NCBI RefSeq assembly: GCF_004125265.1
Contig: NZ_RDTE01000003.1
Location: forward strand, 4,960,001-5,024,000
DNA: 64,000 nt
DNA from: Streptomyces lydicus
GTDB lineage: Bacteria; Actinomycetota; Actinomycetes; Streptomycetales; Streptomycetaceae
Direction: 5' to 3'
A model generated the notes under the pieces. That model was given only the letters and a program-made list of their open reading frames with translations. It was not told the origin of the DNA and did no database searches. Below are positions 58,522 to 63,914 of this stretch, piece by piece (the first letter of the stretch is position 1; every line of letters starts with the position of its first letter). The position numbers and the translations under genes are program-made.

Positions 58522-58980
58522 ATGGACGCGGTGGATAGGCAGCTCATCCAGGCACTTCGCGAGAACGGCCGGGCCTCGTACGCGGAGCTCGGCCGGCTCG
58601 TCGGCCTCTCCGGGCCCAGCGTCACGGACCGGATCAACCGCCTCGAAGCGGCGGGTGTGATCACCGGATACCGCGCGACGGTGGACGCCGCCTCGCTCGG
58701 CCTCGGTGTCACGGCACTGGTGGGCATCTCGCTGTCGGACGCCACCGACCACGAGGACGTCGCGCAGCGGCTGCGCGACCTCGAAGAGATCGAGGACTGC
58801 TGGTTCATCGCCGGCGACGACTCGTACATGCTCAAGGTGCGCGTGGGGGACGTCGACGGGCTGGAGCGCACCATCCGGCGGCTCTCCGGCACCAAGGGTG
58901 TCTCCCGTACGCGCACCACGATCGTGCTCTCCACCAAGTGGGAGAACCGGGTCGGCCAGCTGCCCGAAGAGACCGAATAG
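58522..58980 (+). CDS. Lrp/AsnC family transcriptional regulator
   Basis: A 152-residue regulator. Residues 1-60 are the AsnC winged helix (MDAVDRQLIQALRENGRASYAELGRLVGLSGPSVTDRINRLEAAGVITGYRA); residues 65-145 are the RAM ligand-binding domain (ALVGISLSDA ... CWFIAGDDSYMLKVRV). It stands alone with its own A/T-rich promoter region (58440-58500), next to mqnE. Such regulators respond to amino acids; a link to the neighbouring menaquinone genes is suggested by location only. Confidence 0.93.
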   Translation: MDAVDRQLIQALRENGRASYAELGRLVGLSGPSVTDRINRLEAAGVITGYRATVDAASLGLGVTALVGISLSDATDHEDVAQRLRDLEEIEDCWFIAGDDSYMLKVRVGDVDGLERTIRRLSGTKGVSRTRTTIVLSTKWENRVGQLPEETE

Positions 58981-61030: not shown

Positions 61031-61321
61031 GTGAGTAGCCACAACTTCGCCACGCTCCGCTACACCGCCCTTCGCATCGGCCTCTTCGTCGCCTCGTTCG
61101 CCGTGGTGTGGGCGCTGGCGTACGTCCATGTCATCCCGATCGCCATCGGTGCCTCCAACGCCGTCTGGCTGCTGCTGCTCGCCATCGTGATCTCCGCGCC
61201 GCTCAGCTTTGTGCTGCTGCGCAAGCAGCGGGACGCGATGTCCGAGCAGATCGTCGCCAAGGTCGACCGCCAGCGCGAGCGCCTGATGGCGAACGCCGGC
61301 CAGGAGGACGGGGCGCAGTAG
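61031..61321 (+). CDS. DUF4229 domain small membrane protein
   Basis: A 96-residue protein from GTG 61031. Two hydrophobic helices (residues about 10-34, TALRIGLFVASFAVVWALAYVHVIP, and 41-66, NAVWLLLLAIVISAPLSFVLLRKQ) are followed by a charged tail (RDAMSEQIVAKVDRQRERLMANAG). The pattern LRYTALRIGLF ... LLLRKQRDAMS is the DUF4229 signature found next to menaquinone genes in actinobacteria. AAGGAGAAGG-like sequence lies upstream. Function unknown. Confidence 0.87.
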   Translation: MSSHNFATLRYTALRIGLFVASFAVVWALAYVHVIPIAIGASNAVWLLLLAIVISAPLSFVLLRKQRDAMSEQIVAKVDRQRERLMANAGQEDGAQ

Positions 61322-61424
61322 CCCGCAGTATCAGGCGGCAGTAACGGGCCGCGGCGGCGGTCCGCGGCGGCGGTCCGCGCCGAACGGCCTGGACCTTGTG
61401 TAAGACGCCTCACAGTCGCTTCTC

Positions 61425-61481
61425 CACCACAGGCGCCCGGCCATGGATTTCGCTCCATGGCCGGGCGCCTGTGGTGTTTTT
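61425..61481. terminator. perfect 23-base-pair terminator with T-tract
   Basis: Bases 61425-61447 pair without mismatch to 61454-61476, around the loop TTTCGC, and TTTTT follows (61477-61481). Arms start CACCACAGGCG and end CGCCTGTGGTG. It closes the mqnE-side transcript and isolates the leader-peptide promoter. Confidence 0.92.
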
Positions 61482-61522
61482 GACGGAGGGTCCGCTGCGC
61501 CCGCCGTACCGCCGGCCTCTCC

Positions 61523-61549
61523 GGAACCCAAAGATTTTCTTTGGGTTCC
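61523..61549. promoter_or_regulatory. perfect 12-base palindrome overlapping the promoter of the leader peptide
   Basis: GGAACCCAAAGA (61523-61534) and TCTTTGGGTTCC (61538-61549) flank TTT. The right arm contains TTGGGT (61541-61546), which lies exactly 17 bases before TTAATG (61564-61569), a plausible -35/-10 pair. Transcription would then start within a few bases of the leader ATG at 61578. A repressor bound to the palindrome would cover the -35 box. The A/T-rich composition stands out from the surroundings. Confidence 0.65.
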
Positions 61550-61577
61550 TCAAAGTTCAAGTGTTAATGTACGTGAC

Positions 61578-61682
61578 ATGAAGACAGCAGCCGCGCCCCC
61601 GTCCCCCAGGAGCACTCCGCTCGTGGCGCGCCTGCACGTCGATCTCTGCCGCTGTATGTCCGCGGCCTGTTGCCGCCGCTGA
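61578..61682 (+). CDS. cysteine-rich leader peptide upstream of a DAACS symporter
   Basis: A 34-residue ORF (MKTAAAPPSPRSTPLVARLH, then VDLCRCMSAACCRR). The segment LVARLHVDLCRxxSAxC is the pattern of actinobacterial 'putative leader peptides' that precede sulfur and cysteine genes; here four of the last eleven residues are cysteine, two of them adjacent. The transcript would be almost leaderless (promoter ends about seven bases before ATG). Ribosome stalling at the Cys codons under cysteine shortage could control the downstream symporter gene, 162 bases on. Function by attenuation is inferred; the peptide itself is short and probably has no other role. Confidence 0.72.
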   Translation: MKTAAAPPSPRSTPLVARLHVDLCRCMSAACCRR

Positions 61683-61844
61683 CCGCTTTCCCCAGCGGCC
61701 GGAGATCTTCTCCCCGACCCCTCCGGGCGGGAGAGGCCCCCTTCGCGCCTGCCCTGCAGCCGCGCTCCTCCCCGGCGCGCTTCTTTTCGCCGTCCCGCCG
61801 TCCTTGACGTCCCCGACGTCTCCCCTGTCCCCGGAGTGTGTCCG

Positions 61845-63200
61845 TTGTCCACGTCTGCCGAGACCGCCGAGCCCCCACAGGCTCCCCAGGCCCCCAAGTC
61901 CTCCCGCATACCCAAGGTCCCGTTCTGGGTGCAGATCCTGGCCGGCCTCGCCCTGGGCGTGCTGCTCGGCTGGATCGCCAAGAGCGGTGACCTCGGCTGG
62001 CTCACCACCACGCTCCAGCACATCGGCGATCTCTTCGTCCAGCTGCTGAAGCTCGCCGTGGCGCCGCTGGTCTTCTTCGCGATCCTGGTGTCGATCACCA
62101 ATCTGCGCCAGGTCAACAACGCGGCCCGGCTGGCCACCCGCACCCTGCTGTGGTTCATGGTCACCTCGCTGATCGCCGTCGCGATCGGCCTGGCGATCGG
62201 CCTGCTCACGAACCCGGGCGCGGGCACCGGCCTGACCCCCAAGGACGGCAAGCTCCCCGACCACGCGGGTTCCTGGATCGACTTCCTGACCGGCATCGTC
62301 CCCACCGACATCATCACGCCGTTCACCGAGCTCAACGTCCTGCAGATCGTCTTCATGGCCGCCGTGGCCGGCATCGCGGCCCTCCAGCTCGGCGAGAAGG
62401 CCGAGCCGGTCCTCACGATCAGCCGCTCGGTCCTCGAACTGCTCCAGAAGGCCCTGTGGTGGGTCATCCGCCTCGCCCCGATCGGCACCGTCGGCCTCAT
62501 CGGCAACGCCATCGCGACCTACGGCTGGAACCTGATCGGCAAGTACGCGACCTTCACCGTCGACATCTACGCCGGCTGCGCGCTGGTCCTCTTCGGCGTC
62601 TACCCGCTGCTGCTGTCGACCGTCGCCAAGGTCAACCCGCTGCAGTTCTTCCGCGGCGCCTGGCCCGCCATCCAGCTGGCCTTCGTCTCCCGCTCCTCCG
62701 TCGGCACCATGCCGGTCACCCAGCAGGTCACCGAACGTCTCGGTGTGCCGCGTGAGTACGCCTCCTTCGCGGTGCCGTTCGGCTCGACGACCAAGATGGA
62801 CGGCTGCGCCTCGATCTACCCGGCGATCGCCGCGATCTTCATCGCCCAGATCTTCGACGTCCCCCTCGGCATCGGCGACTACGTCCTGATCGCCTTCGTC
62901 TCCGTCATCGGCTCCGCCGCCACCGCCGGTCTGACCGGCGCGACGGTCATGCTGACGCTGACCCTCTCCACACTGGGCCTGCCCCTGGAGGGCGTCGGCC
63001 TGCTGATGGCCATCGACCCGATCCTGGACATGATGCGCACGGCCACCAATGTGGCCGGCCAATCAGTATGCACGTTGCTGGTGGCTGCGCGTGAGGGAAT
63101 CCTCGATCGGGAGGCGTTCAGCGGCCCGAAGAGCATCAACCTGGACACGGCTGCTGCTGGCGGCGCGGAGGAGAAGGTCTCCGTGCCGGCTGCTGCATAG
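61845..63200 (+). CDS. DAACS-family dicarboxylate/amino acid:cation symporter, possibly cystine
   Basis: A 451-residue transporter with about eight helices. The start is TTG 61845, eight bases after GGAG; GTG 61836 overlaps that GGAG. FWVQILAGLALGVLLGW, LKLAVAPLVFFAILVSITNL and the serine hairpin SRSSVGTMPVTQQV are typical, as is TTKMDGCASIYPAIAAIFIAQ, in which the cation-site motif NMDG of GltPh-type carriers reads KMDG. AGLTGATVMLTLTLSTLGLPLEGVGLLMAIDPILDMMRTATNVAGQSV is the C-terminal substrate site. TcyP, a cystine carrier, belongs to this family, and the Cys-rich leader peptide upstream supports cystine or a sulfur compound as substrate; dicarboxylate is the default alternative. Confidence 0.88.
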   Translation: MSTSAETAEPPQAPQAPKSSRIPKVPFWVQILAGLALGVLLGWIAKSGDLGWLTTTLQHIGDLFVQLLKLAVAPLVFFAILVSITNLRQVNNAARLATRTLLWFMVTSLIAVAIGLAIGLLTNPGAGTGLTPKDGKLPDHAGSWIDFLTGIVPTDIITPFTELNVLQIVFMAAVAGIAALQLGEKAEPVLTISRSVLELLQKALWWVIRLAPIGTVGLIGNAIATYGWNLIGKYATFTVDIYAGCALVLFGVYPLLLSTVAKVNPLQFFRGAWPAIQLAFVSRSSVGTMPVTQQVTERLGVPREYASFAVPFGSTTKMDGCASIYPAIAAIFIAQIFDVPLGIGDYVLIAFVSVIGSAATAGLTGATVMLTLTLSTLGLPLEGVGLLMAIDPILDMMRTATNVAGQSVCTLLVAAREGILDREAFSGPKSINLDTAAAGGAEEKVSVPAAA

Positions 63201-63597: not shown

Positions 63598-63914
63598 ATG
63601 GCTGGGGCCAGGGACGAATTTTCTGTCCATCCGGAAGACATGAAGAGCGTTGCGCCGACATTTTCCAGAGAAACTGCAAACCTGGAAAAGGCGCTCAATG
63701 CTTTGAAGCATTCCTTGAGCAGCCTGGGTGAACCCTGGGGGGCGATGAACAGGGAAAGAAGTTCGGGCACTCCTACACGCCGAAACGTGACGAAATTGTC
63801 AAGGCAATTGGCGTTCTAGTGAAGGGCCTCGACAGCATTCATGACGGTCTGAATGCGCACGCCGAGAACCACGCTCACGCTGATCATCACACTGCGAGTA
63901 CCTTCAAGCGCTGA
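63598..63914 (+). pseudogene. WXG100-type secreted protein gene with a frameshift in a G tract
   Basis: From ATG 63598 the frame encodes MAGARDEFSVHPEDMKSVAP and an amphipathic helix (TANLEKALNALKHSLSSLG), then EPWG. At the six-G run 63737-63742 the frame must change: with seven G the protein would continue GGDEQGKKFGHSYTPKRDEI, a proper W-G-G turn and second helix, to TGA 63912-63914, giving about 105 residues, the WXG100 length. As written the frame instead ends at 63819. WXG100 proteins are exported by type VII secretion as dimers. The lesion may be genuine, slipped-strand switching, or a sequencing error. Confidence 0.85.

Follow-up and report, generated by a model that had tools for sequence, protein, structure and literature searches.

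A conserved leader ORF with cysteine codons probably makes a DAACS symporter gene of Streptomyces lydicus cysteine-responsive

The stretch of Streptomyces lydicus DNA analysed here (64,000 nucleotides, called the window) carries a gene for a DAACS symporter (SDF family, PF00375, KMDGC subgroup; 61845–63200), and the locus raises the question of whether a short ORF in front of this gene places the carrier under the control of cysteine and, if so, what the carrier imports. Positions are those of the window, and features lie on the plus strand except for the two repeats of the operator region, to which no strand is assigned. An earlier note had described a 34-codon Cys-rich ORF with a near-leaderless promoter upstream of the carrier gene, and both are present. 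The codons of the leader occupy 61578–61679 and its TGA stop 61680–61682 (sequence MKTAAAPPSPRSTPLVARLHVDLCRCMSAACCRR; C-terminus RLHVDLCRCMSAACCRR), with four Cys residues laid out as CRC and CC and no contiguous run of Cys codons. The predicted −10 box, TAATGT (61565–61570; TAACGT in most relatives), ends 7 nt 5′ of the ATG, a distance kept in nearly all orthologous loci, and the leader mRNA is therefore probably leaderless. The probable −35 element is TTGGGT (61541–61546; TTGAGG in most relatives), assigned from its position relative to the −10 box (18-nt spacer) and from conservation; it is the best available candidate but a weak match, and a sigma-70 consensus scan of the leader promoter called no site. 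The leader-carrier unit is insulated by a strong intrinsic terminator at 61427–61474 (a 20-pair stem with a T-run), which belongs to the DUF4229 gene (PF14012) further upstream, and a search of 61300–62000 for known RNA families gave only chance-level microRNA matches on this terminator. We infer that the leader makes carrier expression cysteine-responsive and that its target is an importer of sulfur compounds, a reading that we consider probable.

The earlier note's reading depended on the leader being conserved upstream of orthologous symporters. With the carrier as bait, 110 Streptomyces loci including the window were collected, of which one (L086) was cut too short, leaving 109 readable. 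The leader was kept in 106 of these, 104 with R[LR]H[VI]DL and two as variants (L023, L078), and was lost or decayed in L025, L092 and L113. In the L023 leader HVDL is degenerate and the Cys-Arg stretch is enlarged (LCRCRCRRRCRSAACRR). Leaders also precede the orthologues in other Streptomycetaceae genera and in 14 of 18 loci from other families, where carrier identity is 58–67%, in forms such as PLVARLHVDLGRCATALCCG, RRHVDLCHCNGDLCKA, RLHVDLCRLNGDLCR and RLHVDLRRQASSACPA, and none was found at 21 DAACS paralogues (20 in other genomes plus the one of S. lydicus itself). Between start codon and motif the frame is intact in 103/103 orthologues, length changes being in-frame indels or compensating 1-nt changes between the −10 box and the start: the −10-to-motif distance is 68 nt, or 65, 71 or 74 nt, in 99 of the 103 loci, and in the other four it is 67 or 70 nt with a −10-to-start spacing one shorter, so that the frame is held. 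The third positions of H20, D22 and L23 vary synonymously (CAC/CAT 69/35, GAT/GAC 81/23; CTC, CTT, CTG or TTG for Leu) and the amino acids H, D and L are fixed in 104/104. This conservation exceeds chance.

Three kinds of exception were seen among the orthologous loci. In seven Streptomycetaceae loci (L132, L133, L137, L139, L143, L145, L147) the leader is absent and the carrier ATG sits at the place of the leader ATG, a natural leader deletion in which the operator-promoter is fused to the carrier ATG to give a leaderless carrier mRNA; since some lineages have lost the leader and retain the carrier, the leader is dispensable. One Streptomycetaceae genus (L155, L163–L165, L174–L176) has Cys codons in the leader before the carrier (CRC, SCRC), and HVDL is gone. 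The orthologous carrier gene of G443 (L200) contains one internal TGA.

We next consider the family to which the leader belongs. Against the NCBIfam model NF042934 (cis_reg_atten, "putative leader peptide") the window leader scored 23.1 bits (E 3.9e-5) and, in the genome scan, 21.9 bits, short of the cut-off of 27, which is passed by the leaders at orthologous carriers of two other genera (G372, 36.4 bits; G375, 34.8 bits). The leader family is class-wide (144 of 198 genomes, 0 of 14 control genomes) and includes the mycobacterial-type RRAVDLCRVAGCCCCCCSC leaders. Seven other such leaders occur in the S. lydicus genome, in front of genes for an SsuA-like binding protein, cysteine dioxygenase, a nitrite/sulfite-reductase-family protein, CysO-CysM, a rhodanese-type sulfurtransferase, SsuC and a flavin reductase. 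At least six of these seven targets belong to families of sulfur genes (nitrite reductases, too, are in the reductase family), and the flavin reductase behind the seventh leader may be a sulfur gene as well. A short ORF with RxHVDLxRx5C is likewise present at the carrier, whose own sulfur role we infer. The window leader is a member of this sulfur-associated family, which supports the earlier note's argument from Cys-leader peptides at sulfur genes.

Comparison of codons across the leaders uncovered a rule concerning the distal Cys, C31 in the window (61668–61670). This Cys, nine codons downstream of the VDL Asp, is encoded by UGU in 63/63 leaders, a set made up of the window leader, the seven others in the S. 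lydicus genome, 29 class-wide leaders and 26 at orthologous carriers (the window, L004–L010, L157–L173 and L202–L247). The distal codon is UGU in 103/104 Streptomyces carrier leaders, and the first Cys of the leader is UGC in 102/103 of the Streptomyces set. Elsewhere UGU makes up 17 of 101 Cys codons (17%) in the genes of the window and 11 of 276 (4%) in the carriers. In the class-wide leaders the distal codon is UGU in 29/29, compared with 21 UGU to 57 UGC at the remaining Cys positions in these leaders (Fisher p 5e-13; kinship among leaders lowers the effective number, but the seven other S. lydicus leaders sit at different genes). A small hairpin in the leader with UGU as its loop was rejected as an explanation (0.20 versus 0.14 for shuffled flanks, p 0.91, 63 leaders). 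Rare control codons occur in other attenuators, such as CUA in the E. coli leu leader, and the invariant UGU, our proposed control codon, is for that reason likely to be a slow-codon control site. No mention of a UGU rule was found in the literature searched, in which Canestrari 2020 was covered through descriptions in other papers, and as far as that literature goes the rule is new for this kind of leader. A more far-reaching idea, which we offer as tentative and somewhat on the unlikely side, is that the [HA]VDLxR-x5-C leaders of Actinomycetes are a single nascent-peptide family that senses cysteine across the class, standing before many sulfur genes as well as before an ancient clade of DAACS importers. 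In this family a fixed exit-tunnel motif and an obligatory UGU nine codons after the Asp would set the pause, and the codon itself would be selected.

The region upstream of the leader carries a possible operator. The perfect 12-base palindrome that the earlier note placed over the −35 element is an exact 12-3-12 inverted repeat (GGAACCCAAAGA-TTT-TCTTTGGGTTCC, 61523–61549), unique in the 9.24-Mb genome in a search allowing up to 3 mismatches, but its full form is lineage-specific: the full 12-bp arms are common only to the nearest relatives, and the whole palindrome was rejected as the operator because its outer arms are not conserved. What is conserved is a putative three-half-site operator, CAAAG-n5-CTTTG-n7-CAAAG (61529–61555), which overlaps the −35 element and takes in the core of the palindrome as one of its parts; it is followed by GTGTTAACGT. 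It is present in 103/103 aligned loci, with the core half-site bases 94–100% conserved. The exact triple site occurs once per genome in 30 of 61 Streptomyces genomes, only at the carrier gene and with 0 control hits, and when the 61 scans were read against carrier positions no site lay in a genome lacking the carrier. The operator was not found in the other-family orthologue loci read, and was seen only in Streptomycetaceae. A CAAAG regulon was rejected, the triple site being at the carrier gene only, and the Lrp/AsnC gene at 58522–58980 was considered as the cognate regulator, for which there was no evidence. The seven leaderless loci retain the operator-promoter, and by this comparison of loci operator and leader are separable modules.

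Between the leader stop and the carrier start lie 162 nt in the window and 68–260 nt among orthologues. The leader strand of the predicted P1 helix, GAUCUCUGCCGCUG (61641–61654, codons D22–C26), pairs with element A, CAGCGGCCGGAGAUC (61693–61707), 10 nt past the stop, in both the MFE and the centroid structure of the window, as it does in the consensus structure for 31 relatives. A copy of the Shine-Dalgarno (SD) sequence, CCGGAG, lies within element A, the pairing partner of the Cys codons in the leader; the carrier SD itself, GGAG, is at 61833–61836 within conserved GGAGTGTG. The corresponding helix in most other Streptomyces forms between UGCCGCUGUAUG and CAUGCAGCGGCG at a similar distance, and in a clade whose second Cys is replaced by Arg (CRR leaders) the partner ACAGCAGCGG pairs with the C-terminal Cys run instead. 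Element B, CCCUCCGGG (61719–61727), has two possible pairing partners, A and the SD. In the 31 relatives, which belong to the window clade, mean predicted pairing of P1 was 0.90, and that of A with B rose from 0.09 to 0.44 when the leader was occupied; the two pairings are mutually exclusive, as are the alternative partners of a ribosome-mediated attenuator. With gapless helices, about 80 of 104 loci had the leader-interval helix at a single site, and this approach did better than free duplex energies of leader plus interval, which were not discriminating against shuffles (mean z −0.8). The P1 helix is nearly invariant, so that covariation gave it little support, and it is missing in L103, L116 and L117, where the interval is deleted. 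Simple folding showed no consistent rise in SD accessibility on leader occupancy (means 0.19 and 0.19), and unmasking of the SD by a stalled ribosome was rejected on this account; B:SD pairing was predicted in every state for S. lydicus. No intrinsic terminator with a strong U-run was found in the interval. SD exposure, with which a classical switch would end, is unsupported by the folding, and a Rho-dependent version is possible, the interval being rich in C and poor in G.

The model that we favor is as follows. The leader ORF would be translated from its dedicated promoter on a leaderless mRNA, as a regulatory peptide of the actinobacterial [H/A]VDL-x-R-x5-C family, and would tie carrier expression to the supply of cysteinyl-tRNA. 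When cysteine is scarce, the ribosome would slow at the Cys codons, chiefly at the invariant rare UGU of C31, and the slowed ribosome would alter the fold or accessibility of the C-rich interval and allow more carrier to be made. When cysteine is ample, the ribosome would complete the leader, the Cys-codon stretch would pair with element A, and the carrier would stay low. What the carrier imports would be a sulfur amino acid, with cystine or a related sulfur compound bearing an anionic side chain as the likeliest candidate, and a separate transcription factor would act at the CAAAG/CTTTG/CAAAG operator over the −35 element.

Several parts of this model could be otherwise. Leaders of the form RRQASSACPA in other families (L210–L217) have a single Cys codon, and because one Cys codon is too few, simple counting of Cys codons is doubtful there. 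Single-Cys leaders (RLHVDLRRQASSACPA) would suit a peptide-specific arrest, in which the nascent H/A-V-D-L-x-R contacts the exit tunnel, the ribosome pauses at the fixed UGU, and cysteine is sensed through the arrest, not through the number of Cys codons. Unrelated targets and families share the [HA]VDLxR motif and the 9-codon distance from it to UGU, with synonymous third positions free, which also speaks for arrest, but the Streptomycetaceae genus whose Cys-containing leaders lack HVDL (L155, L163, L174–L176) speaks against it, and we regard this version as rather unlikely. Rho-dependent attenuation, which has been proposed for cys leaders (PMC1262725), strikes us as equally doubtful. Here the C-rich, G-poor interval would serve as a rut-like site, with Rho blocked by a ribosome that is held close to the end of the leader; the interval is 50% C and 25% G, in the top 1% of the 150-nt stretches of the window (means of 44% C and 27% G over 104 orthologues), and is without an intrinsic terminator with a strong U-run. 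However, it is short and variable, it contains conserved hairpins, and composition alone is weak evidence. Control could also lie mainly with the CAAAG operator, the leader being a translational enhancer or a relic. Such a view accords with the presence of the operator in all 103 aligned loci and with the leader-loss lineages, which retain it and have the carrier ATG at the former position of the leader ATG; yet the leader peptide and its UGU are conserved in families in which no operator was detected, and leaders of the same family stand at other sulfur genes without a CAAAG operator. We consider dominance of the operator quite improbable.

The substrate has to be judged from the carrier itself, which matches PF00375 with an E-value of 9e-106 (354.6 bits; gathering threshold 27.9) and most likely starts at the TTG at 61845, preceded by the GGAG at 61833–61836. 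The earlier note's observation of KMDG in place of the family's usual NMDG is correct: KMDG occupies residues 316–319 (translation starting at 61848), and KMDGC is found in 139/139 Streptomycetaceae orthologues read and in 18/18 other-family loci. The change from NxDGT to KMDGC is accompanied in the same 139 orthologues by replacement of a Na+-ligand Asp with Gln. Because Lys and Gln align with the Asn and Asp by which GltPh binds Na+, cation coupling is likely to be changed. Kinship with the cystine carrier TcyP, also put forward in the note, holds at the level of the superfamily, a short TM7 signature being the closer link, but whole-sequence identity does not place the carrier closer to TcyP than to GltP or DctA (30.3%, 28.5% and 26.3%, with BLAST bits of 151, 165 and 159, respectively; E. 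coli TcyP from the MG1655 record was the one reference sequence). In alignment with that protein, the TcyP signatures GCAxxYPA (TM7), SRSS (HP1) and DMxRTAxNVxG (TM8) were all found in the carrier, and the GCA insertion is absent from DctA, GltP and SstT. Retention of the TM8 arginine points to a substrate whose side chain is anionic, such as cystine, S-sulfocysteine, cysteate or cysteine thiolate; a cystine-type substrate has about an even chance of being correct. The same arginine is kept in carriers of acidic substrates, and in NCBIfam the carrier matches DctA and GltP best, each with a score well short of the cut-off, as one would expect of an ordinary glutamate/aspartate or C4-dicarboxylate symporter whose Cys codons have nothing to do with its substrate. 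Against that stand the restriction of the leader to the KMDGC clade, its absence at DctA-like paralogues, and the altered motif and Na+-ligand position in every orthologue read, and we think it unlikely that the carrier is of this ordinary kind. In the literature searched, no demonstration of a cysteine response or cystine transport was found for the carrier gene. Downstream of it, the segment 63598–63911 has a WXG100-like start (weak PF06013 match, E 0.027) and seems to continue in another frame past a G run near 63737, so that it seems to be a frameshifted gene or an assembly error.

If the favored model holds, a large and so far unassigned actinobacterial DAACS clade gains a probable role in the import of sulfur compounds, where homology alone would have indicated a glutamate or dicarboxylate transporter. 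The Cys-leader family extends beyond mycobacteria, and a synonymous-codon rule points to its control codon.

Comparison with known systems places the locus as follows. With NF042934 and NF042936 (Ms4527A Cys-rich leader) the window leader shares R-x-[HA]-[VIL]-D-L-x-R-x5-C at the end of a short ORF, which in those families lies before sulfur genes and here before a carrier of probable sulfur role; it differs in scoring below the NF042934 cut-off, in its four Cys (CRC plus CC) and in having a DAACS carrier as its target. The carrier has the DAACS fold and the three signatures in common with E. coli TcyP (YdjN), a cystine/sulfocysteine symporter, and the equivalents of Asn310 and Asp405 are replaced in both (GQNGCAGLYPA in TcyP, KMDGCASIYPA in the carrier; DMGRTALNVSGS and DMMRTATNVAGQ, respectively), whereas overall identity is 30%, KMDGC stands in place of GQNGC, and the HP2 tip is different. 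We know of no Cys leader upstream of E. coli tcyP. The uORFC-8-2 motif before cysS of Rhodobacterales, for which ribosome-mediated attenuation has been proposed (PMC8632094), likewise consists of a Cys-codon uORF that pairs into a stem, but its Cys codons are tandem and predominantly UGC, it has an intrinsic terminator with a U-run, and it belongs to alphaproteobacteria. The polycysteine leaderless sORFs of mycobacteria reportedly act as attenuators that respond to cysteine (Canestrari 2020, PMID 32181921, cited here from the accounts in PMC9031893 and PMC9094748). Those at cysA2 and nirA (PMID 32181921, PMC4633059) are leaderless short ORFs with terminal Cys codons and sulfur-gene targets; the window leader resembles them in its terminal Cys codons and probably also in being leaderless and in the sulfur role of its target, and in the mycobacterial leaders L218–L225 the [HA]VDLCR motif and the UGU position match those of the Streptomyces leader. 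The window leader differs from the mycobacterial sORFs in lacking a Cys run, in its symporter target, in the leader-complementary element A and in the additional operator. The leader-symporter pair is ancient and conserved, and appears to join a kind of regulation that is already known.
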